Shown here: piece by piece, positions 15,595-64,000 of the stretch | Layout: each line of letters opens with the position of its first letter | Position numbering within the stretch: position 1 is the stretch's first letter | Made by a program: the position numbers and the translations under genes | Assembly (NCBI GenBank): GCA_945861025.1 | Contig: CAMASN010000007.1 | Coordinates: forward strand, 1-64,000 | Origin: Ferrithrix thermotolerans DSM 19514 | Lineage (GTDB): Bacteria; Actinomycetota; Acidimicrobiia; Acidimicrobiales; Ilumatobacteraceae | Direction of reading: 5' to 3' | Length of the DNA stretch: 64,000 bases | The notes under the pieces: model-generated | Database searches by the model: none | What the model was told of the DNA's origin: nothing | Seen by the model: only the letters and a program-made list of their open reading frames with translations

Positions 15595-15780
15595 GACGGA
15601 TTAGCACAGAGAGAGGCGATTCGTCGATACAGCGAAGTTTGCATAGTGATGGTTCGACTCGTCATCGTTGAGGAACACTTTGAGTAGGAAGGGTTCGGCC
15701 TTACCTAGCGCCGCTGTGCCACGATAACTGCTAAGTCCTGCTCCATCTAGGACAAACACTTCCCGCGGAAAGGAGAAGCG
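15595..15780. other. Divergent intergenic region upstream of MetE-like gene
   Basis: This region has lower GC than its neighbours. It holds a short inverted repeat, GTCCT (15735-15739) and AGGAC (15749-15753), and a strong Shine-Dalgarno GGAAAGGAG just before the MetE-like ATG. GATAAC at 15723-15728 is a possible -10 element for the plus strand. I see no riboswitch fold or tRNA. Confidence 0.4.
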
Positions 15781-16836
15781 ATGCCAACTGAAACTGCACG
15801 TCGCCATCTTTCTGCTCCGGGTGGCGCCCCGAGTCGTCAGTCGAGTCGGGTGCACGGCGGCATGTCGATGGCTGTCGGCAGCTTGCCGCATCGGTCTGTT
15901 GCGGCCGCGGTAGCGCTCAGCATGTCGTCCACCGACATCGTCACCATCCCAAGTTTGCCCAAGCGTTCACCTGCCGAAAGCATGATCGCCCAGGCGTTGG
16001 TCGGACTCAATGGCGTCACGGTTGGCCAATATGGTTCGCTCGCTATCGATCTCGCTCGCATCGATCCGCTCGCTGCGGTGACCACCGATCTCGAACACGA
16101 TGCGTTCGCCGGTTTCCGCGGCTTTCTCGCCGCCGCTGGCGATCTCGTTGGGCCGGTGAAATGGCAATTCGTTGGCCCCGTCACTCTTGGGTTGGCACTG
16201 CAACGAGCCGGCGTTCCTGCGAGCACAGCGTTCGACGTTGCCGTCCGCGCCGTGCGCGCGCACACCCAACATCTGCTCGATCTTGTTGCCGAGGCATTAC
16301 CCAATTGCGACCAGATCGTTGTGCTCGACGAACCCGAGTTCAGTGCTGTCATGGAACCCGGCTTCGTCTTGGCCCCCGATGTTGCCGTCGACCTGCTCTC
16401 GGGAGCGCTCGCAGTCATCGAATCCGCAGCTGTGGCCGGTGTGCACTGCTGTTCCGAAGCCGATCTGTCATCGCTCATCGCTGCTGGCCCGCGGTTGCTG
16501 TCGTTGCCGGCGCATACCTCGATGGTCGAGAGCGCGGGTTATCTGCAGCGCTTTCTCGAAAGCGGCGGATGGATTGCTTGGGGCGCTGTTGCCACCAGCG
16601 GTCCGGTGCCGCACTCTGCCGAACGACCATGGAAGCAATTGTGTGCGCTGTGGTGCCAACTCGTCGAACGCGGTTGCGATCCGGCGTTGCTGCGCCAGCA
16701 AAGCCTGATTACCCCCGAGTGCGGTCTCGGCACGCATAGCACCGATCTGGCCGAGCGGGTCTTGCTCATCAACGCCGAACTGTCGCGGCGAGTGCGTGAC
16801 CAAGCATCGGCCACGCGTTTTGCGTTTGGCGCGTAA
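15781..16836 (+). CDS. MetE-like (cobalamin-independent methionine synthase C-terminal domain) protein
   Basis: A 351-residue protein resembling only the C-terminal barrel of MetE. Candidate zinc ligands are His and Cys in GVHCCSEAD (H-x-C, as in MetE) and Cys in TPECGLGT (MetE has PDCGLKT). DEPEFSAVM also matches MetE-like spacing. The length equals the MetE catalytic half without the N-terminal domain. The position between mnmA and ligA matches mycobacterial Rv3015c. A glutamate ligand corresponding to MetE's fourth zinc ligand is not obvious. It may be an archaeal-type corrinoid/folate-independent methyltransferase or a sulfur-transfer protein; function is open. Confidence 0.8.
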   Translation: MPTETARRHLSAPGGAPSRQSSRVHGGMSMAVGSLPHRSVAAAVALSMSSTDIVTIPSLPKRSPAESMIAQALVGLNGVTVGQYGSLAIDLARIDPLAAVTTDLEHDAFAGFRGFLAAAGDLVGPVKWQFVGPVTLGLALQRAGVPASTAFDVAVRAVRAHTQHLLDLVAEALPNCDQIVVLDEPEFSAVMEPGFVLAPDVAVDLLSGALAVIESAAVAGVHCCSEADLSSLIAAGPRLLSLPAHTSMVESAGYLQRFLESGGWIAWGAVATSGPVPHSAERPWKQLCALWCQLVERGCDPALLRQQSLITPECGLGTHSTDLAERVLLINAELSRRVRDQASATRFAFGA

Positions 16837-49095: not shown

Positions 49096-51891
49096 GTGAG
49101 TGACGTGAACTCCAATGACTCCGGCCTCGTCTCGACGAACCCTCAGCTTGAAGGGCGGGCGACGGTCTCTGAGATGGTGCGCGCCTTTTTGCCGTTCACG
49201 CGCGGGAGTCGACGCTTATTTGGTCTCCAGTTCGCCGTGTCGTTGCTGCTCTTCGCTCTGCTCGGCCTGCTCCCCCTGCTCACCGGTGACCTGCTGCGCA
49301 CTGCGCTGAATAGCTTTGACGTGGGCGACAAGGCAGACGAGTTCGCAGATAACTGGTTCGCGCTGCAGTCGGAAAACCCCGAGATTTTGAACACGATCGA
49401 TCTCACCGGCGTTGATCGTGAGGCCGTGTTGGTCGGAATCCGCGCGTCCGCAGCGGACGCGCTCGAGAGGAGTTCTACAGGGCTTGTGGATGCTCTGTTC
49501 GTCGACGTGTCCGCCTACCGCACCAGCGGATTGTTGGGGAGAGCCATTGCTCTGAACGTCGACGAGGTCGGGGACACGTATGGTCCCGTGGTCGAATCGA
49601 TCGTTGACGACGGCCGTATCGGTCGGGCCGAGCTAGACGCATTGCGGACACCGAAAAACGGTCCCGATGCGCTGAACCGCATTAAAGGTTTCGATTATCT
49701 CGTGAGCGTGTTGGCCCTGCACCCTGATGCCACCAGCCAACGTAGCGACGCGCGAATCAGTGCGTTCACATGGGAGCTGCTTCGTTTTCTCGGCGTGGTG
49801 GTGGCGGCAGCGATTCTGCGGGCCATTGCTGTCGGGCTTGCAATCAACGCCACATCACTCAGTGGGCGCCGGCTGCAGGATGCGGTGTTTGAACGCGTGC
49901 ACGACACGGTGCTCGTCGAGTCCGGAGCACTCGGGCGACCGAGCATGCTCAGCCGATGCACCACGTACATCGATCAGGTGCAAGAGGCGTTGCTGAAGGC
50001 GCAGACCGATGGTCTGCTGGCTGTTGCGAGCTTGGTGCTGGCGTTGGCCCTGGTACTGTGGATCGACGTCCCGATCGGCACGATGCTGATTGGGACCGTG
50101 CTGATCTTCGAGATCATCCGACGCGTCGTTTCGTCGCGGTGGACGGCCTTGGCTCATCATCGGCTCGATCTGAAGACGGCTCTCAGCGAGACCACTGATG
50201 CTGCGGTGAGCACCGTGGCATCGGTGCGTGCCATCCACGCCGAGGAACACTTCCGTCGACGTTTCCGTCGCGAGGCTGAGGAAGTGCGGTCGTGGACAAT
50301 CCGTCTCGAACGCTTCGGCGAGGCCTTTGGCCTCACGGCGTTCGCAATCGGCCAGCTCGGTGTGCTCATCGTTATCGCAGTGGTCGGCTTCTTGCGTTCG
50401 GACCTGTCGATTGGTGAAGCGACGGCAGCGGTGCTCTACGTGCGAACCGTTGCCGAAGCGCTGACGAGCTTGCCGACGGTACTCATCCGTTTGACGGAGT
50501 CGGCGCCGTACATGCGCCGACTCAGCCGCGTGCTGCTTACGCCGACTCGCCGCGACCAGCCCACAGCTCCGCTGGCCCTGCCAGCGCAACCCAAGGCCCT
50601 GCACGCCGAGAACTTGGGATACAGCGAGCCCGATGGGGCGGGTGGGTTTGCCGACGTCTCGTTCACGGCGACGGCGTTGCGGTGGGCCATGCTCGTCGGC
50701 TCCGTTGGCAGCGGGAGCGAATCGGTCGTTGCTGTGGCAGCAGGGCTTGAGCGGCCGGGGGCCGGACGGGTCTTGCTCGACGACGTCGACCTTGCCACAG
50801 CCTCGATCGGAGATGTCTGTAGGCATATTGCCGTACTCCCGGCGCGCTCCACGGTGCTCGAGGCCACGCTGGCCGAGAACCTCACGGTGCTCCGCCCGCA
50901 GGCGACGGCCGACGAGATAAACGCCGCAGTTGCCGCAGCAGGCTTGACTGCCTTCGTTGCGCGGTACCCCGACGGGATGAACACGCTCGTGGGGGGTCGC
51001 CTCAATCCGGTGGGGCCCCAGGATCGGGCGCGCATTGGCCTCGCGCGTGTGCTGCTCAGCCAGGCACAGGTCGTGCTCATCAGTGACCCCACGGTGGGCC
51101 TCGACCTCGAGGCAGGCGAGGAATTTTGGGGTGCAGCGCGCCGCTACCTCGATGGCCGCATTGTGATTGCATCAACGACCCGCCTCGACCTGATCGACGC
51201 CCGTGATCAGCTCATCGTGCTCGAACGGGGCGGTGTGGTCGATGTGGGCACGCGAGCCGAACTCCTCGCCAGACCGGGCGTGTTCACCCGGTTGTGGCAG
51301 CGCATGCTTGATGGCGTCGACCCAACGAGTGACCTCGGATCGATACCGGGTCTGGCCAAGTTGTCCCCCGAAGTGTTGGCGCAGCTCGCAACGCGACTGG
51401 TCACCGAACGCTTCGAGGACGGCCAGACAATCATCGCCGCCGGTCAGGTAGCCGACCGCGTGTTTATCGTCGTCGACGGGATCGTCGAACTGTTCGACGG
51501 CGATCGCCGGATTGCGACGATGAAGGCCGGCAATCATTTCGGCGACATCGAGTCTCCTGGAGCAGCGGTCACCACGTTCTCAGCCGTCGCCCGCGAGGCC
51601 ACGGTGCTGCGCAGCTTGCACCGCCTGGCCGTCTCCGGTGGCGCGGCCGGTGTCCTCGATCGATCTCCCGCGGAGCGTGCGCTCTATGCCCACTTGGCTC
51701 GTAACGGTGTGTCGACCTCAGCAGAACTCGAGGCGCTGGGCTACAGCACAGGTGTCGGGTCGACGCTTGAGGCACTTGTTGCCGACGGCGTGGTGGTGGG
51801 GGTCGAACTCGACGGCGAGGTCAGCTATCGCCTCGCTGGGTCGCAGCGCCGCCGTCGCGGCGGTGCGGTATCGCTGCTCGACACGCTCTAA
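49096..51891 (+). CDS. ABC exporter-like protein with degenerate ATPase fused to cNMP-binding-like domain
   Basis: A 931-residue protein. Residues about 40-470 are an ABC exporter-type membrane domain, with a long extracytoplasmic insert between the first two helices that contains a weak EF-hand-like DDGRIGRAEL. The nucleotide-binding domain (about 505-740) has lost its catalytic motifs: Walker A reads GSVGSGSES (Lys gone), the Q-loop reads VLPA, the signature is VGPQDRAR, Walker B reads ISDPT, and the switch His is Thr in STTRLDL. A cyclic-nucleotide-binding-like domain follows (FEDGQTIIAAGQVADRVFIV; GNHFGDIESPG), then a winged-helix-like tail. Active export seems unlikely; a regulatory or scaffolding role is inferred. 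Start GTG, 9 nt after the dehydrogenase. Confidence 0.85.
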   Translation: MSDVNSNDSGLVSTNPQLEGRATVSEMVRAFLPFTRGSRRLFGLQFAVSLLLFALLGLLPLLTGDLLRTALNSFDVGDKADEFADNWFALQSENPEILNTIDLTGVDREAVLVGIRASAADALERSSTGLVDALFVDVSAYRTSGLLGRAIALNVDEVGDTYGPVVESIVDDGRIGRAELDALRTPKNGPDALNRIKGFDYLVSVLALHPDATSQRSDARISAFTWELLRFLGVVVAAAILRAIAVGLAINATSLSGRRLQDAVFERVHDTVLVESGALGRPSMLSRCTTYIDQVQEALLKAQTDGLLAVASLVLALALVLWIDVPIGTMLIGTVLIFEIIRRVVSSRWTALAHHRLDLKTALSETTDAAVSTVASVRAIHAEEHFRRRFRREAEEVRSWTIRLERFGEAFGLTAFAIGQLGVLIVIAVVGFLRSDLSIGEATAAVLYVRTVAEALTSLPTVLIRLTESAPYMRRLSRVLLTPTRRDQPTAPLALPAQPKALHAENLGYSEPDGAGGFADVSFTATALRWAMLVGSVGSGSESVVAVAAGLERPGAGRVLLDDVDLATASIGDVCRHIAVLPARSTVLEATLAENLTVLRPQATADEINAAVAAAGLTAFVARYPDGMNTLVGGRLNPVGPQDRARIGLARVLLSQAQVVLISDPTVGLDLEAGEEFWGAARRYLDGRIVIASTTRLDLIDARDQLIVLERGGVVDVGTRAELLARPGVFTRLWQRMLDGVDPTSDLGSIPGLAKLSPEVLAQLATRLVTERFEDGQTIIAAGQVADRVFIVVDGIVELFDGDRRIATMKAGNHFGDIESPGAAVTTFSAVAREATVLRSLHRLAVSGGAAGVLDRSPAERALYAHLARNGVSTSAELEALGYSTGVGSTLEALVADGVVVGVELDGEVSYRLAGSQRRRRGGAVSLLDTL

Positions 51892-52376
51892 CTCGTGAGG
51901 AAGTTGCGGATCTGGGTGTGTTCAACTGCGAAGCCAGCGCGTTGCCAGAACGTGAATGCAACGGAGTCGCCGGGCGAGACGTAACTCTCGATCGATGTGC
52001 AGCCGCGTTCGAAGCACCACTGTGCGAACGACTCTCGAAGGCGGGTGCCAACTCCGCTGCCGCGGTGCGACTCTTTGACATAAAAGTGCGGCATGGTGGC
52101 GAACTTTTCTCCGCCGAGATAATCGGGGAGGGCGCGGATCAGCCCGTAGCAGAACGCAACGACCTCGTCGCGGTCAACTGCAATCTGAACTGTGCCGATC
52201 CTGCCAACGGCCTTCTCGACGCTGCTGCGCCACAACTGCGCAGCGTTCTCGACGAACGGAACGAGTTGGCCGACAGTGCGCAGATGCTCGATGTGTTCGG
52301 CGAACAACGCCTCGACCTGATCAAAGCGTGGGTCGCCTCGCTCGGGCAGCACGATGGTGACATCGTGATCGGTCAT
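51888..52376 (-). CDS. GNAT N-acetyltransferase, last gene of adenylation-carrier operon
   Basis: A 162-residue GNAT protein. The acetyl-CoA loop is VKESHRGSGVGTRLRESFAQWC, followed by the strand IESYVSPGDSVAFTFWQRAGF; together these are GNAT motifs A and B. The ATG overlaps the carrier-protein stop (ATGA). Its stop overlaps that of the convergent ABC-like gene (CTAA). In this operon it could acylate the amino acid loaded on the carrier protein, or move the amino acid to a target. Acceptor unknown. Confidence 0.85.
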   Translation of the reverse strand: MTDHDVTIVLPERGDPRFDQVEALFAEHIEHLRTVGQLVPFVENAAQLWRSSVEKAVGRIGTVQIAVDRDEVVAFCYGLIRALPDYLGGEKFATMPHFYVKESHRGSGVGTRLRESFAQWCFERGCTSIESYVSPGDSVAFTFWQRAGFAVEHTQIRNFLTS

Positions 52377-52636
52377 GGCCCAGTGCTCAACAACGATTTC
52401 ACGAGTCCATCTACGGTGGTGAACGCATCGGGATCCATGTCGGTGAAGTCGACCTCGAGGTCGAAGCTCGACTCGACGCTGTCGATGAGTTCGATCAGTC
52501 CGAACGAGTCGAGCAGGCCTGACTCAAAGAAATCGAAATCGCCGTCAACCTCAAGGCCGTCGAATCCCAATCGGCCGGCGCGCTCGACCAGAAAACTGAT
52601 GACGAACGCCTCCATTGCGGTCTCTCGTTCACTCAT
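52373..52636 (-). CDS. Acyl/peptidyl carrier protein
   Basis: An 87-residue carrier protein with the phosphopantetheine attachment serine in ESGLLDSFGLIELI and an acidic four-helix composition (pattern VDGDFDFFESGLLDSFG). It resembles DltC and D-alanyl or amino-acyl carrier proteins more than FabC-type ACP. It lies between the adenylation enzyme and the GNAT gene, overlapping both by ATGA, so it should carry the amino acid or acid activated by the ligase. Confidence 0.9.
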   Translation of the reverse strand: MSERETAMEAFVISFLVERAGRLGFDGLEVDGDFDFFESGLLDSFGLIELIDSVESSFDLEVDFTDMDPDAFTTVDGLVKSLLSTGP

Positions 52637-54252
52637 TTGGCTCGCCCTTCAAGCGTCTTACTCAGCGCAGCCCGGTCGATCTTGCCGTTGCTGTTCAGCG
52701 GCAGATGATCGATGAAGAACACTTGCTTGGGAACCATATACGGGGGTAATACCTCGCGACACGTTGCAAGGGCAGCCGCTTCGCCACCCTGATCGCCATC
52801 TCGCACCGCGAAGGCGTACAGCGCTTCGGCCGCTGGGCCAGCAGGGTACGACACAGTGATCACCGACTCGGTGTGCAACGCGGCGCGCAGTACAGCGTCT
52901 ACCTCGGCGAGCTCGACGCGAAATCCCATGACCTGTACCTGATCATCAATGCGTCCGTGGAAGATCAGACCGTCAGAGGGCGACCACTCGACGAGATCGC
53001 CGGTGCGATACCAGCGGTCGCTGCTGTGGGGCAAGACCACGAAACTCGCCGCGGTTCGTTCTGGGTCATTCCAGTAACCAGGAGTCACCTGCGGCCCAGC
53101 AAGACACAGTTCGCCGCGTTGGCCTTCGCCCACGGTGCATCCGGACGTATCAACGATTGCGACCTCATGGCCGGGGAATGGCCTACCGATCGGCACCGCA
53201 GCTCCGGAACCTGAATTCGCAGTCCACTCGTACGACGTGATCGCGATGGTTGCTTCGGTGGGGCCGTAGAGATTATGCACCGTTGAGTTCGGAGCAGCAG
53301 CGCTCCATTTCTGCGCGACGCTGGCGGGTAGTGCTTCGCCGCAGAACAAGCTGATTCTCAGGCTTGGATACGCGCCGGGCTTCATCGTTCGCATGCGGTC
53401 CATCAGCATCGCTGAGGAAGGCACCGAGAACCACGCCGTGATTTCTTCGTCGCGGATGAACTTGGCTGGGGCGATCGTTGCTCGTTTCGTGGGCACGCAC
53501 AGGCACGCTCCCGCCATCCATGTCGCGAACAGATCATGCACGCTGAGGTCGAACGTGAGGTCGAACATCTGTGAGCAACGGTCTGCGGGTGAATATCCGT
53601 ACGCGCTGACAGCGTGCGACAGATACGCAGACACGTTGGCCTGGCTGACGCCGACTCCCTTGGGCATGCCGGTGCTCCCGGAGGTAAAGAGCAGATAGGC
53701 GATTGATTCATCGCTGACCATTGGGGTCTCGACATGTGGTGTCGTGGCAATGACTCGTGCATCAAGCCGAAGGCCCATCCCAGAACTTGCACTCCATTCG
53801 GGCAGGCGACGCGTTGGGAACAGCACCGCTAGGGCGCCCTCGTGCGATTCCAGTAGTGGTCGAGCGACCTCGTCGGCCTCGGGGCCCACTACGAGTGTGG
53901 CCGCCCCCGATCGGCGCAGCATGCCACCCGTGCGGTCCACTGGAAACCCGGGATGCAAGGGCACATAGGTGCGGCCGGCGAGCACCGCACCAAGCACGCC
54001 CAGATAGGCGTCGAGACTGCGCTGACCGAGCACGGCCACTGGCGCCCCAGTGGGATCGGCTTGTGAGATGGCGGCTGCGATTGATCGGGCGCGCTCGTCG
54101 AGTTCGCGGTACGAAATCGAGGCACCGTCAACCTGCAAAGCCGACTGGTGTGGCGACTTGAAAACTCCGCTCCGCCATGCGTCGGCCAGCGATCGCACCG
54201 TGGGGTGCCCCGGTGCTGGCGATGGTGGTGGACGAACCGATCGCCGTGCCAT
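52633..54252 (-). CDS. Amino acid adenylation enzyme, DltA-like
   Basis: A 539-residue ANL-superfamily enzyme, stand-alone adenylation domain. Core motifs: LLFTSGSTGMPKGV (A3), MFDLTFDLSVHDLF (A4, with the Asp that binds an amino group in amino acid-activating enzymes), NLYGPTEATIAITSY (A5), YRTGDLVEW (A7), GRIDDQVQVMGFRVEL (A8) and NSNGKIDRAAL (A10). No carrier or condensation domain is fused; the carrier is encoded by the next gene. D-alanine or another amino acid is the likely substrate. Divergent from the HAMP gene, with 56 bp between. Confidence 0.9.
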   Translation of the reverse strand: MARRSVRPPPSPAPGHPTVRSLADAWRSGVFKSPHQSALQVDGASISYRELDERARSIAAAISQADPTGAPVAVLGQRSLDAYLGVLGAVLAGRTYVPLHPGFPVDRTGGMLRRSGAATLVVGPEADEVARPLLESHEGALAVLFPTRRLPEWSASSGMGLRLDARVIATTPHVETPMVSDESIAYLLFTSGSTGMPKGVGVSQANVSAYLSHAVSAYGYSPADRCSQMFDLTFDLSVHDLFATWMAGACLCVPTKRATIAPAKFIRDEEITAWFSVPSSAMLMDRMRTMKPGAYPSLRISLFCGEALPASVAQKWSAAAPNSTVHNLYGPTEATIAITSYEWTANSGSGAAVPIGRPFPGHEVAIVDTSGCTVGEGQRGELCLAGPQVTPGYWNDPERTAASFVVLPHSSDRWYRTGDLVEWSPSDGLIFHGRIDDQVQVMGFRVELAEVDAVLRAALHTESVITVSYPAGPAAEALYAFAVRDGDQGGEAAALATCREVLPPYMVPKQVFFIDHLPLNSNGKIDRAALSKTLEGRAK

Positions 54253-54308
54253 GATTCGTCCTGTCCTTGCGTCTTCTTGGAGTGAGTGCGGACGTGTAGG
54301 TTAGCGGA

Positions 54309-55508
54309 ATGCCAACTACCACTAATCAGACCACAAACGCGCCAGATTCGTCTGTGCGCCGGCGTCGTGTCCGACTCGGAATGCGGTGGAAGCTTGTTTT
54401 TGGCTTCGGCCTGGCGATCACAATCGTCTTCTTCGCGGTCGCTGGCTGGATTCTCAGCTTCTCCACGAACACCGCCACCACGAGGCTCAAGAACAGCTTG
54501 GTTGATTTGGCAGAGGGTGGCGCTCAGACCATCGATGTCGCCAACTTCTCCAACTTGCTCACGATCCCAGAACGGCCCACGCCCGGAACGAAGTACCCGG
54601 CGAACGCTGGATTCCTTGCGGGCACCACAGCAACGGCCGAAAGCACGTGGCCAACCGACGCGGCCTACTGGCAGCATGTGAGCGAGATGCTCAATATTCG
54701 TCGCACCAATCCCGACGCATCGCCGTATACGTATGCCACCACCTCAGACGGTGAACTTCGCTTCATCGGCCAGTGGGGGGCGTACGGCTTCACGAACGTG
54801 AGTTGGTGCGCAGACTCCGAGGGCGTGCAGATCGATGACCCATGCGGTGCTCAGTTCAAGCAGTCTGCCGCTGAGGTGTACGGCACGGTTCCCACCTTCG
54901 TGACCGACGGCCTCTTGCGCACCACACCGCAACCTGCGTACACCGATGCGCTCAACACATGGATCTCCGTGTATACGCCCATCAAGGACACAGTTGGCAA
55001 CACGGTAGGCGCACTTGGCGTCGATTATCCGCTGTCGTACGTCAACGACGTTCGTTCTCGTGTGCTCAAGGTGCTCTACCCCGTGTTCGGTGCCTCGTAC
55101 CTCGTGCTGCTTGTGCTCGTCTACTTCATGGCCGGACTCGTCACCCGCCGCCTTGGTCGGATCACATCGGTGACTCAGATGGTTGCCGATGGTGACTACT
55201 CGGTCGACGTGACCGACTTCGCCAAAGCGTATTTCCGCGATGAAATGACCGAGCTGGCTGACAACTTCCAGGTGATGACCCTGAAGGTGGGCGAGCGCGA
55301 ACGAAGCCTGACACGAACCGTTGCAGTGCTGCGCGTCGAGATCGACGAAGCAAAACGAATGGATGCTGTGAAGGAGATCGTCGATAGCGACTTCTTCAAC
55401 CACCTCACCCAGAAGGCAGCAGCGATGCGCGCCAAGGTGAAGAATCAAGAGCTTCAGGATGCTGCGGTTGGGCGTAGCGACTCAGGGGCGGAGCCATCAA
55501 GTGAGTGA
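54309..55508 (+). CDS. HAMP-domain sensor protein without an output domain
   Basis: A 399-residue protein: membrane helix at about residues 30-50, a roughly 200-residue extracytoplasmic domain (Cache-like in its ending, WISVYTPIKDTVGNTVGALGVDYPL), second helix about 257-280, HAMP domain (TRRLGRITSVTQMVADGDY) and a coiled coil with VLRVEIDEAKRMDAVKEIVDSDFF. No kinase, cyclase, phosphatase or receptor domain follows; the end is a short polar tail. ATG 54309 lies 6 nt after TAGGTT. The next gene overlaps by 8 nt, so the signal probably passes to that membrane protein or to the ABC-like protein. Confidence 0.85.
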   Translation: MPTTTNQTTNAPDSSVRRRRVRLGMRWKLVFGFGLAITIVFFAVAGWILSFSTNTATTRLKNSLVDLAEGGAQTIDVANFSNLLTIPERPTPGTKYPANAGFLAGTTATAESTWPTDAAYWQHVSEMLNIRRTNPDASPYTYATTSDGELRFIGQWGAYGFTNVSWCADSEGVQIDDPCGAQFKQSAAEVYGTVPTFVTDGLLRTTPQPAYTDALNTWISVYTPIKDTVGNTVGALGVDYPLSYVNDVRSRVLKVLYPVFGASYLVLLVLVYFMAGLVTRRLGRITSVTQMVADGDYSVDVTDFAKAYFRDEMTELADNFQVMTLKVGERERSLTRTVAVLRVEIDEAKRMDAVKEIVDSDFFNHLTQKAAAMRAKVKNQELQDAAVGRSDSGAEPSSE

Positions 55509-56964
55509 TGACCTGAATCTCTTTGGAGAAAAAGGCGACGCGCCTAGGCCCCGGCGCAATATCGACGACGCGTTAGGCGATATGTCCCGTGCCGCTGAGC
55601 GTACGCGTAGCGCTGGCAGTGCACTCGACGATCTGATTGCTAGCTCGGGTGCTCGGCCGAGAGGCGAAGCCGCACCATCTGAAACGGCGCGCCTCGACAC
55701 GCGCAATCGTTGGGCACTTGCGCTCGCGTTCGCGCTCGCCGGTGTGGGGTTCTGCGGGGTGCTCACCGAGTCCGTTGCGGCTTCACAGTTGCTCAGTAAC
55801 AGCAGTCCCATGGCGTTGGCGGTGGTCTGGCCACTTGGTGGTCTCGGCCTGCTGCTTATCGCGTTTGCCCAAATGCGCTACGTCGACCGATTCGCACGAC
55901 TGGGCGTTGTGCGCTGGGTGTTCTTCATCTGCAGCGCGGCGTTTATCGCCATGCTGGCCCTTGTTGCATTCGGTGTACCGCACAAAGTTCCGGCGGCCAT
56001 CGCGTGGCTTTTGGCCGACCAACTCAACTTCTTGCTGCCCCTTGTGTTGTGGACCCTCGCTGGCGACGTGTTCACCACCGGCCAAGGTGCCACAGTGTTT
56101 CCGAAGATTTCCCGATGGTTGTTCGGCGGTCAGATCGCCGGTCTTGGCGTTGCCGTGCTCGCACCCACGGTGTTCAACCTGAACGATGACTCACTCATCT
56201 GGCTGCTTGCGGCGCCACCACTGGTCGGAATCCTGGTGGCGGTACTCTTGCCGCGGGCCCTCGCCGGTGCCACTACCGGAGTCGGCCACCAACGGGCGCA
56301 GGGCGCAACCGAGTCGCTCAAAGACACGGTGAGCTTCATTGGTCAACTTCCCGCATTTCGTTGGATGTTCTGGGTCGGAGTGTTCGCCATCTTTGGCGGA
56401 ACAATGGTCGACTTTGGATTCCTGCATCTTGCGACCACGCGTTACTCCGATGCTGGATCGCTGCAAGCGGTGTACGCCGGCACCTCACTGGTGTGCTTCG
56501 TAGCGTGTTGGTTACTGCAGAACTACGGATCAACGAAGATCATCAAGAGCCAAGGGATTGCGCGAGTGCTTCAGTTGCTGCCTATCGGTGCGTTGCTCGG
56601 TGGAGCCGTTCTTGTAATCGGCGGAGCGACCACCACGGTGGCACTCGGTTCTCTTGCGCTGGTCATCTGGCGTATCCCGCGATGGAGTATCGATGGGTCA
56701 GCGAGGCAGGCCGCGATGGCGAGTTTGCCCGACGAGCGTCGACTTCGTGTCTCGTTCGCAATCGACATGGGTCCACTGGCGTTGAGCCTGATTCTCGCGG
56801 CTGTTCCCATCGCACTCGCGGTGCAGACCGACAATCTGTGGATCGCTCCGTCGATTGGCGTTGCGTTCGCGGCCGTTGGTCTGGTCCTGAGCCGTAACAC
56901 TGTTCGCACATGGGACGACACTCAGCTCTCGTACCGACTCAAGCGACGTAAGCGACTCGGCTGA
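55501..56964 (+). CDS. MFS-fold membrane protein of ADP/ATP-translocase (Npt1/Tlc)-like type
   Basis: A 487-residue protein with a roughly 75-residue polar N-terminal extension and about 12 membrane helices. GDVFTTGQGATVFPKISRWLFGGQIAG and WVGVFAIFGGTMVDFGFLHLA resemble the conserved blocks of the Npt1/Tlc nucleotide-transport family, and the C-terminal FPxI-like element fits. The relation is by pattern and not certain; an ordinary MFS carrier is the alternative. GTG 55501 overlaps the HAMP gene. In other bacteria such proteins can be fused to cyclic-nucleotide-binding domains, which here are on the nearby ABC-like protein. Confidence 0.7.
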   Translation: MSDDLNLFGEKGDAPRPRRNIDDALGDMSRAAERTRSAGSALDDLIASSGARPRGEAAPSETARLDTRNRWALALAFALAGVGFCGVLTESVAASQLLSNSSPMALAVVWPLGGLGLLLIAFAQMRYVDRFARLGVVRWVFFICSAAFIAMLALVAFGVPHKVPAAIAWLLADQLNFLLPLVLWTLAGDVFTTGQGATVFPKISRWLFGGQIAGLGVAVLAPTVFNLNDDSLIWLLAAPPLVGILVAVLLPRALAGATTGVGHQRAQGATESLKDTVSFIGQLPAFRWMFWVGVFAIFGGTMVDFGFLHLATTRYSDAGSLQAVYAGTSLVCFVACWLLQNYGSTKIIKSQGIARVLQLLPIGALLGGAVLVIGGATTTVALGSLALVIWRIPRWSIDGSARQAAMASLPDERRLRVSFAIDMGPLALSLILAAVPIALAVQTDNLWIAPSIGVAFAAVGLVLSRNTVRTWDDTQLSYRLKRRKRLG

Positions 56965-56993
56965 TCATCGTTGTCTCACGGCACTGGCCGAGG

Positions 56994-57719
56994 TCAGCGG
57001 GTTCGTTCGGCGCCTACCGCCGAAGCCACCCAGGCAATGTCGGCATCGAATCGGTAGTGGTCAAGTAAGAACGCTGCAGCTCCAGCCTCTCGCGCGTGGC
57101 CTTCGATCGTGGCAGGTTCTATTCCCTCAGGTGGGAGCCAAAGCAGATGAAGGCGACGTAGTTCTGAGCCGGGTCCTTGCCATTGCGCTGCGCTTTTGGG
57201 TTCGTAGTACTCAATGTCGAGGTCGCGCATGCCGATCAGCCTGAAGAATGGAGCGCGGGTCCTTGGCGCTTCGCCAACTAATCCGAGTACCGGTACGTTT
57301 CCGCAGTCGCTGGCCAGTTGCTCGATGATCGTGCGATACAGCCAAGCCAGTAACCGACGCTGCCCGACCTTCAAGGCTCCAACCGCTGGGTCAAGGTGCA
57401 CGAAGTGAACGATGGCAACCCTTCGATGAAGGTTTGAATCGAACACGACATAGCCCGCGGGTGACCCATCAACCTCGAGCAACCATTGGTGCGATTGCAC
57501 CTGCGCAACGCTCGCGATGGGCCCCGATCTGGTGCGCAGCAGTGGCGTGAAAAATGGGTACTTCGGAAATGCTGCTTCGTGCAACGTGTTCAGCGAAGCG
57601 CTGAGTTGGCCTTCGGGATCTCCGATCACGTCGGTGAGCACGATCAGCGAGCCGTCGTCGGCGCGTTGTGACAGGGGTGATCCGCGCCCGATGTCGGGCG
57701 CGGGTTCGGGCTGAATCAT
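56994..57719 (-). CDS. GNAT-like acyltransferase domain protein
   Basis: A 241-residue protein. LTDVIGDPEGQLSASLNTLHEAAFPKYPFF at the N-terminus and LLEVDGSPAGYVVFDSNLHRRVAIVHFVHLDP look like the first strands of a GNAT fold; KVGQRRLLAWLYRTIIEQL occupies the place of the CoA-binding helix. The usual Q/RxxGxG/A loop is only partly kept (LKVGQRR). Start ATG 57719, 19 nt after the MinD-like stop, so the two genes are cotranscribed. Function unknown. Confidence 0.65.
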   Translation of the reverse strand: MIQPEPAPDIGRGSPLSQRADDGSLIVLTDVIGDPEGQLSASLNTLHEAAFPKYPFFTPLLRTRSGPIASVAQVQSHQWLLEVDGSPAGYVVFDSNLHRRVAIVHFVHLDPAVGALKVGQRRLLAWLYRTIIEQLASDCGNVPVLGLVGEAPRTRAPFFRLIGMRDLDIEYYEPKSAAQWQGPGSELRRLHLLWLPPEGIEPATIEGHAREAGAAAFLLDHYRFDADIAWVASAVGAERTR

Positions 57720-57738
57720 TGGCCGAAGGCCGGGTGGT

Positions 57739-58491
57739 CTAGAGGCCGACGCGCGCTGCGACAGATGCAAGGGTGCGCGACCACGGATGGTCGGGGCTGG
57801 TGATGCTGAACAGGCCACCGGAGGCGTTGGTGACCATGTCTTCGGTGAGCTGCAACACGCCTGCGACTTCGGCACCGTAGGCGCGTGAGACATCTTCGGC
57901 GACTGCGGCGAGATCTGCCTGTGACGGAACCTTGTTGACCAGCAACAGCAATTCGGGTACGTCGAGCCGACGAGCGATGTCGACGGTCACGGCAGTTCCC
58001 TGAAAGTCTTGCTTGTCGGGGCGCAGGATGAGCAACAAGGTGTCGCTGATCGTGATGGAAAGCAGGGTCTCTTCGTTGAGCCCAGGGTGCGTGTCGATGA
58101 CCAAGACGTCGAGGTTCAAGCCCTTGACGAGTGCCCGGAAGCCTTCGTTGAGGAGTTCAACGTCGTAGCCCTGGCGCAGCACCTTGGCGATGTCTGCTGC
58201 CTTGATGCTGGCTGGCACGAGGTACAACGTTCCGGTGGTGTTCCCCACCTTGGCAGTCACATCGTGAGCGCATTCGACGATTGGGCACCCGCCGTAGAGA
58301 TAGTCGTTGAGCATCTTGCCTTGCATCTCTTCGTCGAAGCCGAAAAGAACATGAATCCCTGGCGATTGCACATCGGTGTCGACTACTGCCACACGCTTTC
58401 CGGCGAGAGCGAGCTGCGCTGCAATGTTGGCGCTCGTATTGCTCTTCCCAGTTCCACCACGAAATGAATGGACAGACACGATCTTGGTCAC
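57739..58491 (-). CDS. MinD/ParA-like ATPase
   Basis: A 250-residue P-loop ATPase of the MinD/ParA type. Deviant Walker A SFRGGTGKSN (residues about 9-18) with the signature lysine position taken by Arg-Gly-Gly, Walker A' VAVVDTDVQSPGIHVLFG, and Walker B VLVIDTHPGLNEETLL. MinD-type C-terminal amphipathic helix is not evident. GTG start is preceded by GGGAGG, and GGAGG-AA-CCTCC forms a small palindrome across that site. Not in a chromosome-partition locus, so it probably positions or regulates the membrane proteins in this cluster. Confidence 0.85.
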   Translation of the reverse strand: MTKIVSVHSFRGGTGKSNTSANIAAQLALAGKRVAVVDTDVQSPGIHVLFGFDEEMQGKMLNDYLYGGCPIVECAHDVTAKVGNTTGTLYLVPASIKAADIAKVLRQGYDVELLNEGFRALVKGLNLDVLVIDTHPGLNEETLLSITISDTLLLILRPDKQDFQGTAVTVDIARRLDVPELLLLVNKVPSQADLAAVAEDVSRAYGAEVAGVLQLTEDMVTNASGGLFSITSPDHPWSRTLASVAARVGL

Positions 58492-58588
58492 GGAGGTTCC
58501 TCCCGGTAGCTCCTGCAGCGTGTGCTGCCGGATACAATCCCTCCAGTTTAGCTGTGGCCAACCGTGCTACGCATATCGGAGGTAACCG

Positions 58589-59128
58589 GTGTCGGATCAG
58601 TTTTTCAGCCGCGAGGAGATTCTCGGGGGCGGACTGTCACGAATTCGCCGGGCGCGGGCGATTGTCTTCCTTCTCGAACAAGAAGCGCGGCGCATCGGCG
58701 ATCGCAACGCAGCCCTCGCTTCGGTGTCCCCAGAGGCCGCAGGGCTCTTCTCCGCCATCCTCGATGGTGATCCCGAACTGATGCGCCGATCCCTCCCGGG
58801 CGAGGCCGACGCGGCATTTATCGAGTCGTTCCGCAACTCCCGCAGGCGGTCGAAGCCTGCGGCAAGCAGACTCATCGAGAACACTGTCGATTCGTGGAAA
58901 GTGCTCCTCCCCGAGGACATGGCGCTGCGCGCCGAGGTGCTGCATCAGATGTCGCTTCGTCATGGTCTGCCGCGTAATCGCAGTCGGCGCATCGCTGCTG
59001 AGTTCGGCGTCGGTCAACAAGCGTTCGATGACGCCTATCTCCGCGTGGTGGGAGACCCATCATCCACAGCGTTCGGTCCGGACCTCGGTTGGTTCGCCTC
59101 CTTGCGGAAGTCTTCGGCCACGCGCTGA
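58589..59128 (+). CDS. Conserved hypothetical protein, divergent from MinD-like gene
   Basis: A 179-residue, highly charged, mostly helical protein. It starts SDQFFSREEILGGGLSRIRRARAIVFLLEQEARR and later has LRHGLPRNRSRRIAAEFGVGQQAFDDAY, where the last part could be a helix-turn-helix-like pair. GGAGG lies 8 nt before the GTG and TACAAT (58533-58538) is a good -10. It shares a 97-bp divergent region with the MinD-like gene. No family recognised. Confidence 0.75.
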   Translation: MSDQFFSREEILGGGLSRIRRARAIVFLLEQEARRIGDRNAALASVSPEAAGLFSAILDGDPELMRRSLPGEADAAFIESFRNSRRRSKPAASRLIENTVDSWKVLLPEDMALRAEVLHQMSLRHGLPRNRSRRIAAEFGVGQQAFDDAYLRVVGDPSSTAFGPDLGWFASLRKSSATR

Positions 59129-59975: not shown

Positions 59976-60027
59976 GGGTTCCTGACCAGCCGTATCCGCT
60001 GGGTTGGTGTGGCTAATATCAACCGCA

Positions 60028-61113
60028 ATGAACAGCGACGAAGTCGGTCTTGCAGCGCGTCAAACCTCTGGCTCAATCACGCTCGATCAATTGTCGAAGC
60101 ACTACCCAGCGCAGGTAGCGGTTGACCGAATTGATCTCACGATCGCGGGCGGCGAGTTCTTCTCACTGCTGGGTCCGTCGGGTTGCGGCAAGACCACAAC
60201 GCTGCGAATGATCGCTGGTTTCGAAGAGCCAACCAGTGGGCGAGTACTCATCGACGATGTAGACATCACTCACGTTGGTGCCGACAAGCGTCCGGTCAAC
60301 ACGGTGTTCCAGAGCTATGCATTGTTCCCCCATCTCAGCGTTTCCGACAACGTTGGGTTTGGGTTGCGGTTCACCAAATCGTCAAAGGCCGAGACTGCCA
60401 AGCGCGTGGGTGAGGCGCTCGAGCTGGTGCGTCTTGGCGAGTTCGGCAAGCGGATGCCGCATCAGTTGTCGGGTGGCCAACAGCAGCGTGTTGCGTTGGC
60501 TCGAGCACTGGTGTTGCGGCCCAGCGTGTTGTTGCTTGACGAGCCGCTTGGTGCGCTCGATGCCAAGCTTCGCAAGACGTTGCAATCAGAACTGGTGAGC
60601 CTGCAGCGCGATGTGGGAATCACGTTCGTCTACGTGACCCACGATCAAGAAGAAGCGCTCACAATGAGCGATCGGCTCGCAGTGATGGACCATGGCGTGG
60701 TTGCGCAACTGGGCACGCCACGCGAGGTCTACGAACGGCCTGAGAACGCGTACGTTGCCGACTTCCTCGGCACGGCAAATCTCATCGATGCGCAAGCGAA
60801 CGGCGACGGCAGTTGCACGTTGGCCGGTCAGCGAATTGCAGTGGCCGAGTCGCAAACCAGCACGGGTCCGGTCCGTTTGATCGTGCGGCCAGAACGCCTT
60901 CGTGTCGTGGGCTCAGGGGCGCAATCGAACCTCTCTGGTTTCGTGAGTCGTGTGGTCTACGTGGGGTCGGTGACCCAGGTCTATGTCGAGCTTGCGTTCG
61001 GCGTCACCGTGCAAGCCTTGATGGCCAACGACGGCGATTCAGTGGTACCCGAGCGCGGATCACTGGTGCAGCTGTGGTGCCCAAGCGATGCGGTGCGGCT
61101 ACTCGCACACTGA
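60028..61113 (+). CDS. potA: Polyamine-type ABC importer, ATPase subunit
   Basis: A 361-residue PotA-like ATPase: Walker A LGPSGCGKTTTLRM, Q-loop in NTVFQSYALFPHLSV, signature LSGGQQQRVALARAL, Walker B VLLLDEPLGALDAKLR, switch HDQEEAL, and a C-terminal TOBE-like domain (about residues 235-361). The ATG at 60028 follows TAATAT by 8 nt (leaderless). It faces the permease and binding-protein genes, which run on the opposite strand and converge on it with 5 nt between stops; in most pot operons all genes are on one strand. Confidence 0.93.
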   Translation: MNSDEVGLAARQTSGSITLDQLSKHYPAQVAVDRIDLTIAGGEFFSLLGPSGCGKTTTLRMIAGFEEPTSGRVLIDDVDITHVGADKRPVNTVFQSYALFPHLSVSDNVGFGLRFTKSSKAETAKRVGEALELVRLGEFGKRMPHQLSGGQQQRVALARALVLRPSVLLLDEPLGALDAKLRKTLQSELVSLQRDVGITFVYVTHDQEEALTMSDRLAVMDHGVVAQLGTPREVYERPENAYVADFLGTANLIDAQANGDGSCTLAGQRIAVAESQTSTGPVRLIVRPERLRVVGSGAQSNLSGFVSRVVYVGSVTQVYVELAFGVTVQALMANDGDSVVPERGSLVQLWCPSDAVRLLAH

Positions 61114-61118
61114 ACTGA

Positions 61119-61973
61119 TTACCAACTCGCGAGTTCTTTCAAGCTGTTTTCGCCAGCGTTGGCGTCGCCTTGTCGGCGGCGCATCACGCGCATGATTGCG
61201 AACACCACCACAAGCGCCAGCATCGACAGGCTCAGCATGATGGTGGCGAGGGCGTTGAGTGCAGGTGTAGCGCCGCCGCGGACCGACCCGTAGATTTTTA
61301 CTGGCACTGTCTCAGATCCGGCGCCAGAGGACAACAGCGACGATGCCACGAAGTCGTCGATAGATGTTGCAAAGACGAGCACCGCTGACGCAAAGATCGC
61401 CGGAGTAAGCAACGGCAAGATGACCATTCGCACGGCTTGAAACGGTGACGCGCCGAGATCTCGCGCGGCCTCTTCGAGGTCGGGCCCGATTGAGAGCAAT
61501 CGTCCTCGTACCACGATGACCACATAGCTGAGCGAGAACGTGACGTGCCCCACCAACTGTGCGGGTCGGCCAAGATCGAGGAACGCGTAGCTGTTGGTGA
61601 CCACCAAGAACAATGCGGTTCCAACAACCAGTTCGGGGGTGACTAAGGGCAAGAGCAGAATGCCGTTCGCGACACGTGCGGGTTTGCCGCGCCAACGGGT
61701 GAGCCCCAGTGCCAACCCGACGCCGAGTGGAGTAGCCACAAGAATTGTGAGCACGGCGAGCACCAGGCTGTTGCGCAACGCGCGCAGCAGGCTGTCGTCG
61801 TGCCATACCGACGAGAACGGGTCGCCCCAATACCAGCGAAGCGAGAAGCCCTGCCATGTCGATCGGCTGCGACCCGAGTTGAAGCTGAACAGCACAGCGA
61901 TGGCCACGGGCAACATGCTCCACAACACGTAGAGAGCCGTGAAGCTTGCGAGCAGTTTTGGTTTGCTCTTCAT
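61119..61973 (-). CDS. potC: Polyamine-type ABC importer, permease (PotC-like)
   Basis: A 284-residue permease with six membrane helices. ARNSLVLAVLTILVATPLGVGLAL and the EAA loop LEEAARDLGASPFQAVRMVILPLLTPAI are conserved. Its ATG overlaps the potB stop (ATGA). FDDFVAS-like SIDDFVASSLLS is typical of PotC, which pairs with PotB. Spermidine/putrescine is likely, but related importers take up other cations. Confidence 0.9.
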   Translation of the reverse strand: MKSKPKLLASFTALYVLWSMLPVAIAVLFSFNSGRSRSTWQGFSLRWYWGDPFSSVWHDDSLLRALRNSLVLAVLTILVATPLGVGLALGLTRWRGKPARVANGILLLPLVTPELVVGTALFLVVTNSYAFLDLGRPAQLVGHVTFSLSYVVIVVRGRLLSIGPDLEEAARDLGASPFQAVRMVILPLLTPAIFASAVLVFATSIDDFVASSLLSSGAGSETVPVKIYGSVRGGATPALNALATIMLSLSMLALVVVFAIMRVMRRRQGDANAGENSLKELASW

Positions 61974-62869
61974 CGGGTCACCAGTTTCTGGGCTCTGTTC
62001 ACGCTGACGAGGTAGCCGGCCATCACGACGAGTAGTGCCGCCGACAACATGAGCACCAGCGAGGCGCCCACCTGAGGCTGCGTGGTTTGCTGCAGGAAGA
62101 ACACAATCTGGTTGCCGACCATCTCGGTTCGTGGCGAAGCCGACAACAAGTTGTTGGTGTAGTAGTCGCCCACCATCGGCAACGCAGTAATGACGCAGGC
62201 AGCTATCAGGCCCTGCCGGGATAGAGGAAGTGTTACTCGCCAAAACGCTTGGCGGCTCGTTGCTCCAAGGTCGCGCGCAGCTTCGAGTAGCCGCCCATCA
62301 ATGCGGTCGAGTGTTGCGTACAAGGGCAGAATGAAAAACGGCACATAGCCGTAGACCAAGCCGAACACCACGGTGATTGGTTGGCCGCTGAGCCAGTTGC
62401 GATCGCCCGCGGGTAGGTGGCTGAGCAGTTGTGCCATCCAGCCCTGCGGCTGGAGCAGATTGACCCACCCCAACATGCGCATCAGATAGCTCACCCAGTA
62501 GGGAAGGATCATCAACACGAGGAGCGTGGCGCGCCACTTGCCTGCTTCGCGGCTCACGAAGTAGGCCACCGGGTAGCCCACAACAACGCAGCCGGCGACA
62601 GCCAGAACGACGTAGAGGGCAGTGCGGATGAAGACCGTGCCAAGGTCGCCGTTGACCACTCGGTCCATCACGTCGGTGAACAACGTGAAGTCCCAGAACC
62701 GAGGATTCCACTCGGGCACGGCCGACTGTCTAATCGGATCAACCTGGCCGAACGCCACTGCAGCAACCGAGTAGAACGGCACGATAAAGAACAGGGCCAT
62801 CCACGCCATACCGGGCGCAGCGAGGCCGAGCCAGAGTGTGTTCAGCGATTGCCGCGAGCGGCGTGCCAC
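61970..62869 (-). CDS. potB: Polyamine-type ABC importer, permease (PotB-like)
   Basis: A 299-residue permease with six helices. YPVAYFVSREAGKWRATLLVLMILPYWVSYLMRMLGW is the conserved PotB region, and LLEAARDLGATSRQAFWRVTLPLSRQGL is the ATPase-contacting EAA loop. It starts 4 nt after potD and overlaps potC. Confidence 0.9.
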   Translation of the reverse strand: MARRSRQSLNTLWLGLAAPGMAWMALFFIVPFYSVAAVAFGQVDPIRQSAVPEWNPRFWDFTLFTDVMDRVVNGDLGTVFIRTALYVVLAVAGCVVVGYPVAYFVSREAGKWRATLLVLMILPYWVSYLMRMLGWVNLLQPQGWMAQLLSHLPAGDRNWLSGQPITVVFGLVYGYVPFFILPLYATLDRIDGRLLEAARDLGATSRQAFWRVTLPLSRQGLIAACVITALPMVGDYYTNNLLSASPRTEMVGNQIVFFLQQTTQPQVGASLVLMLSAALLVVMAGYLVSVNRAQKLVTR

Positions 62870-62873
62870 GGCG

Positions 62874-64000
62874 TTACGCGCCCGTGCGTAGCGAGCTCCA
62901 AGCGTCTTGCCACATCTTGTCGGCGACCGCTGGAAGGGCCAAGATGCGCAGACCCTTGGTGAAGTCGTCTTGGGTGACGAGTGCGTTGGCGAGGTTGTCG
63001 GGAATGGTGCCCTCGGCCACCAACGTCTCGGCTTCGAAACCCTTGAGCGTGCTCTGATAGCCGATGTACGCCTGGTTGATCGCTGCGTTCTCGGGGTTGA
63101 GCATGAAGTTGATGAAGGCGTGGGCCGACACCGGATGTTCGGCGCTGCGCATGATGCTCATCGCGTCGTTGTTGATCACCCGTTTGGCGATTGGTGGCAC
63201 CCAGTACCCGAGCACTGACGAGTCGGTGCCTTCGGGTAGATAGCCCTGTGCGGCGAGAATGTCGCCACTCCACAACTGGTTGATGGTGGTGGTTCCCTCG
63301 GGGATGCTCTGGTAGCCAAGCACGTCGAGACGCGGGTTGCTGGCCTCAAACATCTTGCGAAGTTCGGCGACGCCAGCATCGATGTCGGTCTGTGATTCGG
63401 TGTTGACGTTGTCGATGCCGGCGTGCTGCAGGCCGAGAGCCATTGCCTCGCGATACGAGTCGAGCAACCCGGCGACGCCGCTGTATTGCGGATCCCACAA
63501 TGCATCCCAACCGGAGTCGCCTTCGAGCGGTGCGGCCACGAGGTCGGAGCGAAACCCGATGCCGGTAGAGAACACCGTGTACGGCACGGAGAACTGACCA
63601 CCAAGGTCGTAGAACGGATCTCGCACGCTGTCCCACAGGTTTTCGTAGTTTGTGAAGTAGCTCTTTTCAAGCGGCTGCACCAACTTGAGTGCCACGTACT
63701 TGGGCAACAGATCGATCGCGGTAGACATCAGCAGGTCAACCTTGAACGCACCCGTAGAGATCTTGCTGAGTGCCTCGACGTCGTCGCCGAAGGTGCTGAG
63801 CTCAACAGTTACCCCGGTCTCAGACTTGAACTTGTCGAGCAGTTCGGGGGCTACATAGTCGGCGAAGTTAGCAATGCGAAGCGGGCCAGCCTCGTTGCTC
63901 AATCCGGCTTTGATGGCTGCGTTGTCTGACGTGAGCGCAAACTTCACTGGCTTTGCCGGCGACGCGATCTGCAGTTCAATAGACGAAGCGCCCTTCGATC
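62874..64000 (-). CDS. potD: Polyamine-type ABC importer, substrate-binding protein (5' end beyond window)
   Basis: The visible 375 codons lack the start: the frame stays open to the window edge, adding residues such as GASSIELQIASPAKPVKFAL before the mature-type sequence GPLRIANFADYVAPELLDKF. The latter is the usual PotD N-lobe start. Other landmarks are VPYTVFSTGIGFRSDLV, LWDPQYSGVAGLLDSYREAM and EHPVSAHAFINFMLNPENAA, close to PotD/PotF. The signal peptide must lie past 64000. A GTG at 63947 is not taken as the start because coding continues upstream without interruption. Confidence 0.88.
   Translation of the reverse strand, partial: SKGASSIELQIASPAKPVKFALTSDNAAIKAGLSNEAGPLRIANFADYVAPELLDKFKSETGVTVELSTFGDDVEALSKISTGAFKVDLLMSTAIDLLPKYVALKLVQPLEKSYFTNYENLWDSVRDPFYDLGGQFSVPYTVFSTGIGFRSDLVAAPLEGDSGWDALWDPQYSGVAGLLDSYREAMALGLQHAGIDNVNTESQTDIDAGVAELRKMFEASNPRLDVLGYQSIPEGTTTINQLWSGDILAAQGYLPEGTDSSVLGYWVPPIAKRVINNDAMSIMRSAEHPVSAHAFINFMLNPENAAINQAYIGYQSTLKGFEAETLVAEGTIPDNLANALVTQDDFTKGLRILALPAVADKMWQDAWSSLRTGA

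Follow-up and report, generated by a model that had tools for sequence, protein, structure and literature searches.

The 64,000-nt stretch of Ferrithrix thermotolerans DNA analysed here (the window) carries, at positions 49096-59128, nine neighbouring genes, among them a MinD-like ATPase that we propose to be the hub of the group. An earlier annotation made from the letters alone (the sequence-only reading) had listed these nine open reading frames (ORFs), and all of them were confirmed at the positions given. The assembly holding the window is 2.9 Mb in size and 95.6% complete, and because the G+C content stays at 0.59-0.65 along the window (2-kb steps), composition gives no foreign mark to the region. 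On the plus strand lie a degenerate exporter-like ABC protein of 931 residues with a cyclic nucleotide (cNMP)-binding domain (49096-51891), a transmembrane HAMP sensor (54309-55508), a polytopic protein resembling MFS and TLC ATP-ADP translocases (NPT, 55501-56964) and a helical protein of 179 residues (58589-59128). On the minus strand lie a GNAT acetyltransferase (GNAT1), a carrier protein, an adenylation enzyme, a divergent GNAT-like protein (GNAT2, 56994-57719) and the MinD-like ATPase itself (57739-58491, Pfam AAA_31/CbiA). Most of the domain calls made beforehand stood, i.e., Pfam recognized the ABC, cNMP-binding, GNAT, PP-binding, AMP-binding, HAMP and ParA/MinD domains; the window's NPT, GNAT2 and 179-residue proteins were matched by no Pfam or NCBIfam model. 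Two gene starts were revised. NPT most likely begins at GTG 55501 and not at ATG 55459, as judged from the alignment with its relative in genome G102 (G numbers denote the genomes compared and L numbers the loci), which leaves an 8-base overlap with the HAMP gene. GNAT2 most likely starts at about 57719, because the first 58 residues listed mostly overlap the 3′ end of the MinD gene in another frame, and because both parts of the match stand apart in G102.

Relatives of the ATPase were sought in 118 genomes of the order and, in a wider comparison, in 396 genomes of the phylum. At E values up to 1e-25 they were found in the window's genome and G102 only within the order, and in nine genomes of the phylum, eight with a close relative and one (G455) with a divergent one (38% identity); the other ParA/MinD-type proteins of the tested genomes score much lower (1e-11 to 1e-14). 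In addition, a contig scan with the protein yielded at least 528 encoding stretches at a loose limit of 1e-3, the best 80 of which, with at least 59% identity to the window protein, were used. These 80, the window, G102 and six phylum genomes make up the 88 MinD loci counted below, from which the divergent locus of G455 (L023) was excluded. By title, the best 80 come from actinobacterial, chloroflexotal and cyanobacterial organisms, from a single Bacteroidetes bin and in some cases from uncultured bacteria, and as judged from these titles the family spans three phyla, Actinomycetota, Chloroflexota and Cyanobacteria. The P-loop lysine (GKS/T, Walker A class) is kept in 100 of the 102 readable family ORFs, including the HSFRGGTGKSN of the window, and is gone in two fusion paralogues (L050 and L068). 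ParA/MinD proteins are marked by a signature lysine before GG (KGG); an arginine stands in its place in the window and in 102/102 readable ORFs. The best PDB sequence matches were MinD-1 (1hyq), other MinD/site-determining proteins and FleN.

Between the window and G102 the ATPase is 97% identical, with a synonymous divergence (dS) of 0.91 and a nonsynonymous to synonymous ratio (dN/dS) of 0.022, against 0.088-0.38 for the five other genes compared. In this one pair, MinD is strongly constrained, more so than any other gene compared. A recent horizontal transfer was considered as the source of the 97% identity and rejected, the dS of 0.91 being only slightly lower than the 1.0-1.7 of the neighbours. 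A second MinD-like gene with an altered P-loop lies near the first in eight loci (L056, L074, L085, L088, L050, L051, L068 and L099); its P-loops read, for example, HSFRPGTGKS or HSFRRGVGKS, and have no lysine in L050 and L068, which suggests a heterodimer or an inactive partner.

The HAMP sensor had been called output-less. Pfam does find the HAMP domain alone in it (residues 273-324), with no recognized kinase or methyl-accepting chemotaxis protein (MCP) output, but a conserved tail of 48 residues, delimited by profile and alignment, lies at its C-terminal end (55293-55436, plus strand), and we propose this tail as its output module. The sensor's own cluster (a community cluster of ORFs, as in all cluster counts here, not a set of curated orthologues) covers 29 loci, window included, and a profile begun at the end of the window protein converged on 70 proteins in 60/88 MinD loci, again with the window among them. 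Their consensus is RExxLxxQVxxLxIEIDxxKRxxxVxEITxSDxFxxLxxxAxxxR. No Pfam or NCBIfam family covers the tail, whose matches there were weak and scattered (best 0.002 and 0.004), and a PDB sequence search with it returned a single match at chance level. With three more tail proteins from other loci of G133 and G293, 73 were scanned with Pfam. HAMP was found in 53, dCache_2 in 13, dCache_1 in 11, a receiver domain in six, a cNMP-binding domain in six, CHASE2 in five, GAF in five, HisKA in two and PAS in one, several matches per protein being possible. By its sequence, the tail is the shared end of otherwise unlike input proteins. A truncated kinase or a SiaA-type phosphatase was also considered for the window protein and rejected: the NCBIfam scores lie far below the cut-offs, the match includes the HAMP domain, and the conserved tail follows it.

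The distribution of the tail follows that of the ATPase. Among the 396 phylum genomes (tail at E up to 1e-6), eight carry both, one the tail only (G293, where the absence of MinD was judged at 1e-10), one the divergent MinD only (G455) and 386 neither. Fisher's test on these numbers gives 6e-15, a value to be taken as a guide only, the genomes being related and six of the eight having given rows to the tail profile. More informative are G413 (of the same genus as G366) and G487, which carry both and supplied no profile rows. Furthermore, 28 genomes lack a tail at their MinD locus, and 23 of them have one elsewhere, trivially so in G514, whose other locus L048 is in the profile. G133 has four tails. 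Two are close to MinD; a third, 1.4 Mb from MinD on the same contig, belongs to a HAMP protein whose gene directly adjoins one for an ABC-cNMP-winged-helix protein (L117:8767-12620), and the fourth to a PAS protein around which 20 kb contain no further module of the system.

The tail and the ATPase are also found in one chain. L089:1288-2808 is a single open frame of 506 residues with a cNMP-binding domain (26-109), the tail (184-230) and the MinD-like part (245-504). In L057, L068 and L050, a MinD-like protein is followed by a C-terminal winged helix, and the L057 fusion keeps the P-loop lysine (HSFRHGTGKSN). As read from these sequences, the MinD-like fold is naturally joined to the tail and to the winged helix, and for each of the two joins there is one protein whose P-loop is intact.

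The winged helix is the third shared module. Its profile, based on small proteins encoded near MinD, picked up 75 ORFs in 58/88 loci, either as stand-alone small proteins or at the C-termini of ABC-cNMP, acetolactate-decarboxylase-like and MinD-fusion proteins. Pfam was run on 46 of the 75 (the remaining 29 are small stand-alone proteins) and on the L117 protein, and in these 47 carriers PF03306 was found in 10 and a cNMP domain in 23; stand-alone members, scanned separately (n = 22), match general winged-helix families such as MarR_2, HTH_IclR and HTH_24. In the window the module ends the ABC protein. Pfam finds there an ABC membrane domain, an ABC ATPase domain and a cNMP-binding domain (about 51406-51621; 38.3 bits against a cut-off of 27.5, with AlphaFold2 and Foldseek in agreement), and the winged helix (residues 850-922 by profile, about 51643-51861, also seen by AlphaFold2), which the sequence-only reading did not have, follows, ahead of a C-terminal SLLDTL peptide. 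The AlphaFold2 model of this C-terminus (predicted local distance difference test, pLDDT, 81) runs from the cNMP barrel through a helix-helix-helix-strand-strand unit to a basic end, where the pLDDT falls below 50 and the last six residues are modelled as helix; Foldseek groups the model with the cNMP domains of CRP and PKG. The phosphate-binding cassette of cNMP domains has a conserved Glu and Arg. The window pocket reads FGD, without the arginine kept in relatives, and looks degenerate by its sequence; the G102 relative, which lies alongside its cluster (43-44% identity), retains both residues. The claim that the ABC ATPase is dead was borne out, as none of the 20 aligned proteins spanning the site, that of the window among them, has the Walker A lysine (two further rows do not cover it). 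This set of dead ABC proteins (the window and 20 others) was hand-picked from 26 BLAST-positive loci, and L101, L045, L048, L073, L024 and L049 were left out as other ABC proteins.

The ends of these proteins gave a lead, which we do not count as a result, that end peptides may be shared across the system. The motif [LIVMW][WLF]Dx[LIVMF] occurs within the last 20 residues of 18/21 ABC proteins and of 16/1213 other ORFs of at least 200 residues, and by our reading seven of the latter 16 belong to the loci themselves, being of the acetolactate-decarboxylase-like, extra-GNAT or PrsW type. A similar IWxAL ends many winged-helix proteins and a DPW[DG]FL-like stretch begins many NPT proteins, although the strict pattern is found in only 7/30 small winged-helix and 4/27 NPT proteins. 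Basic C-terminal stretches are present in NPT, ABC and many winged-helix proteins.

The remaining window genes recur to different extents. The NPT cluster covers 27 loci. Within the order NPT has one strong match beyond the window, in G102, and a weak one in G095 (7e-4 over 89 residues), around which, in 18 kb, the tested genes gave just a short P-loop match to MinD; within the phylum, close homologues occur in three genomes (the window's, G102 and G133), all with MinD and the tail and all among the profile rows. A PDB sequence search with NPT gave no match, and the window protein does not match PF03219 (TLC ATP/ADP transporter); the cluster member of Herpetosiphon aurantiacus DSM 785 (L074) does, at 2e-8. 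Distant NPT matches in G198, G218, G271, G280 and G363 lie inside long open frames (about 1000 residues), in which a translocase-like domain may be fused to other parts. The GNAT2 cluster covers 19 loci, and its L033 member matches Acetyltransf_1. The 179-residue protein, all-helical in an AlphaFold2 model of moderate confidence (pLDDT 75), has no PDB match for this model (best Foldseek E 2.3) and only weak single matches in Pfam. Its family is found in 7/396 phylum genomes, beside MinD; all seven belong to the eight genomes that carry both MinD and the tail, and all are profile rows. In G366, G413, G334, G487 and G403 the domain adjoins or N-terminally precedes an amino-acid-permease-like protein, an assignment made by Pfam on the G334 protein.

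The grouping itself is kept in G102, where HAMP (75%), NPT (79%), GNAT2 (58%), MinD (97%) and the 179-residue protein (83%) stand together. G102 has no ligase, carrier or GNAT1, and a 34-residue piece of GNAT1 persists beside its HAMP gene; it has in addition an acetolactate-decarboxylase-like gene and, between MinD and GNAT2, a further gene; the L047 relative of this further gene is a GNAT by Pfam, the match of the G102 protein itself being below cut-off. Farther away, L074 has seven consecutive genes on one strand: MinD (9962-10753), a second MinD-like gene (10755-11543), NPT (11588-12940), a weak GNAT2-like gene (12924-13736), HAMP-tail (13749-14819), an ORF of 284 residues that reads as hydrolase-like (14841-15695) and a winged-helix gene (15711-16160). 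The cyanobacterial loci L057, L090, L092, L095 and L101 combine a tail protein, a winged helix and MinD, the tail protein of L092 being a CHASE2 protein by Pfam. A cyclase-cluster protein occurs in 12/88 loci, ten of them with Chloroflexota-type titles, and a PrsW-cluster protein in twelve. Pfam was run on 7/13 members of the cyclase cluster (all seven match Guanylate_cyc), 4/12 of the PrsW cluster and 3/12 of a binding-protein cluster, and all are as named.

The sequence-only reading had held that these parts are rarely seen together. They are not rare in combination, since the modules recur together across MinD loci: the HAMP-tail, NPT, GNAT2, ABC-cNMP-winged-helix and 179-residue families all return around MinD, and a cluster unique to this strain was rejected on the same recurrence. 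The proposal that the HAMP, cNMP-related and MinD-like parts make up a membrane-signalling cluster that looks undescribed was supported. It is well supported, from gene content and neighbourhood, that six of the nine genes form a recurring bacterial gene set around the MinD-like ATPase. Co-occurrence, co-location, the fusions of input, tail and MinD and of MinD and winged helix, and modules common to unrelated proteins tie the parts to one another, and we propose that the locus is a modular signalling system in which a sensor tail would act through the MinD-like ATPase on winged-helix-tagged effectors. We put the probability of this reading at roughly one half. It is a further step, to which we give slightly less than an even chance, to see in it a new class of signal transduction, present at least in Actinomycetota, Chloroflexota and Cyanobacteria, in which exchangeable inputs would feed through the tail into a MinD-like switch and from there to membrane or metabolic effectors marked by the winged helix.

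An ATP-driven dimer switch is established for ParA/MinD proteins. In the proposed system, varied sensors would share the 48-residue tail, the membrane HAMP receptor being the one that senses in the window, and the tail would act on the MinD-like ATPase by shifting its ATP-bound or dimeric state. The ATPase would then engage effectors that bear the winged helix and possibly also an [LI][LW]Dx[LI] C-terminal peptide. The likely effectors in the window are the dead-ABC/cNMP protein and the NPT transporter, and elsewhere they would be acetolactate-decarboxylase-like enzymes and small stand-alone winged-helix proteins; the NPT transporter, the GNATs and the 179-residue protein may be linked partners. 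From the architecture we infer the contact of the tail with MinD, the direction of the signal, an effect of MinD on winged-helix proteins and on transporters, and whatever physiological output results. No description of the system was found in the open text of PMC, whose coverage does not extend to preprints and subscription journals, nor in passages of PMC8195603 and PMC10241942; the arrangement would be new provided that the signal path we propose holds.

Several observations weigh against this reading. The 88 loci are not independent, as L034/L041 and L048/L067 share one genome each, L024 is a near-copy of the window and L025 of G102. The tail, NPT and 179-residue profiles drew partly on MinD loci, and positives there are partly by construction; the informative part of these censuses is the absence in other genomes, and this base rate in MinD-less genomes comes from the window's own phylum alone. 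Ten of the 88 loci are without any listed partner, eight of them cyanobacterial by title, the GNAT2 relatives of Herpetosiphon are weak (24-28%), and 5/28 MinD genomes are without any tail. Conversely, G293 has a tail protein (L116:10160-11071) and no detectable MinD of the family, which makes it either an exception or an incomplete assembly. The cNMP-tail-MinD fusion was found once, in L089, and the divergent winged-helix fusions of L068 and L050 no longer have the P-loop lysine (CRHGTGCSH and CRHGLGASN); one guess is that they are inactive partners of an active ATPase. Because two of the three winged-helix fusions are such P-loop-less paralogues, the signalling reading and the new-class reading were rated slightly lower and positioning by the ATPase slightly higher.

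Positioning, which the sequence-only reading had assigned to the MinD-like protein, stands as the best of the rivals, and we consider it unlikely but serious. The ATPase would then place sensors and transporters with no signal relay, and its partner segments would be either the tail or the basic ends that the membrane proteins carry. McdA, ParC and PpfA are positioning ATPases of the ParA/MinD family, and ParC/ParP and PpfA/TlpT position chemoreceptor arrays. According to PMC10241942, ParA/MinD ATPases are best known as positioning devices for chemotaxis clusters and other cargos, many are still orphans, and their partners are thought to act via a positively charged, disordered N-terminus. The basic ends seen here on NPT, ABC and many winged-helix proteins would suit such partners, though they are C-terminal, and so would the hydrophobic D motif, with its 18/21 against 16/1213. 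However, soluble receiver, GAF, PAS and cNMP inputs share the tail with membrane receptors, which fits a signal input better than a cargo, and both the input-tail-MinD fusion in a single chain and the arginine that replaces the signature lysine in 102/102 ORFs argue against positioning.

A nucleotide second messenger could instead be the core of the system, with class III cyclases making cNMP, the cNMP domains of ABC and tail proteins reading it, and MinD as an accessory, which we regard as improbable. The cyclase cluster in 12 loci, two cyclase domains in the window's genome and cNMP domains on 23/47 scanned winged-helix proteins and 6/73 tail proteins speak for it, but 67/73 tail sensors have no cNMP domain, 76/88 loci show no cyclase-cluster member and the window pocket lacks the arginine of its relatives. 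A cNMP signal, which had been part of the earlier proposal, is plausible and unproven on these grounds, with the cyclase domains and the cNMP-tail proteins in its favour and the degenerate pocket against it.

The earlier working idea, that HAMP or cNMP sensing governs a DltA-like ligase, a carrier and a GNAT which aminoacylate or acylate an envelope target, is very improbable. The three genes lie inside the cluster, as they also do in L027, and in the window are on the minus strand: GNAT1 (51888-52376, by Pfam), an acyl/aminoacyl carrier protein (52373-52636, PP-binding by Pfam) and a stand-alone amino-acid-adenylation (DltA/NRPS-like) enzyme (52633-54252, TIGR01733 above cut-off). Besides the window, close relatives of all three are complete in L027 only (adenylation enzyme 68%, GNAT1 64%, and the sole relative of the carrier); in L024 the adenylation enzyme has a truncated start, G102 keeps the GNAT1 remnant, and adenylation domains of distant similarity (29-31%) occur in long proteins of L091 and L103. 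Nearly every other locus is without close relatives, and the three genes are, judged by their distribution, a lineage-restricted addition to the locus. Dlt-type D-alanylation was rejected: the curated cut-offs for DltA and DltC were not reached (277.5 against 476 bits and 40.4 against 68 bits), and neither DltD nor MBOAT/DltB was matched in the 95.6% complete genome of the window or in G102. An MBOAT protein beside a weak DltD match does occur in G133 (G133:C1:2188628-2189969), far from its MinD locus. A chance neighbourhood of unrelated genes, for which one may cite that the locus gains and loses genes between relatives, has next to no probability, as the same modules recur in three phyla and in natural fusions, and is refuted for six of the nine genes.

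Compared with known systems, the MinD-like protein belongs to the same ATPase superfamily as the positioning ATPases MinD and FlhG/FleN, but differs by its arginine and by neighbours and fusions that are tail-bearing inputs and winged-helix proteins. The sensors share HAMP, and in many relatives a Cache ectodomain, with MCPs, histidine kinases and SiaA-type phosphatases, whereas no phosphatase, cyclase or MCP domain is among the 25 Pfam families listed for the tail proteins and HisKA is found in two of the 73. NPT is linked to the TLC ATP-ADP translocases through the PF03219 match of its Chloroflexota member, the window protein itself having no Pfam match and no solved relative by sequence. 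The C-terminus of the window ABC protein is nearest to CRP-type cNMP-binding plus winged-helix proteins, Foldseek grouping it with the cNMP domains of CRP and PKG, but the unit is joined to a degenerate ABC exporter and its winged helix is shared with the system's enzymes and small proteins. With Dlt D-alanylation the window shares the adenylation enzyme and carrier, and it differs by the low DltA/DltC scores and by DltB and DltD not being found. HAMP, Cache, CHASE2 and GAF proteins without a recognized output easily pass for orphans or for incomplete sensors. Should the tail prove to be their output, with MinD receiving it, there would be a pathway for a group of these sensors in three phyla, partners for an orphan MinD-like family and a role in signalling for ParA/MinD ATPases. 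For Herpetosiphon aurantiacus a complete genome is public, and with most of the set together in L074 the idea is directly testable with its genes.

Some minor observations were also made. Acetolactate-decarboxylase-like proteins, most with a C-terminal winged helix, occur in 11/88 MinD loci (including L005:10239-11234), from adjacent to MinD to several kb off. An extra GNAT-like protein of about 500 residues lies directly downstream of MinD in L005 (12630-14117), L025, L026, L027, L077, L084 and L096, and elsewhere in the locus in L031, L040, L047 and L058; it is absent from the window, where MinD adjoins GNAT2. L030, L043, L071, L076 and L082 are titled Bifidobacterium breve and have actinobacterial versions of the system, and the titles look misnamed (bins). 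Finally, a polyamine-type ABC importer (ATPase, two permeases and binding protein), judged from translations alone, adjoins the cluster in the window at 60004-63947.

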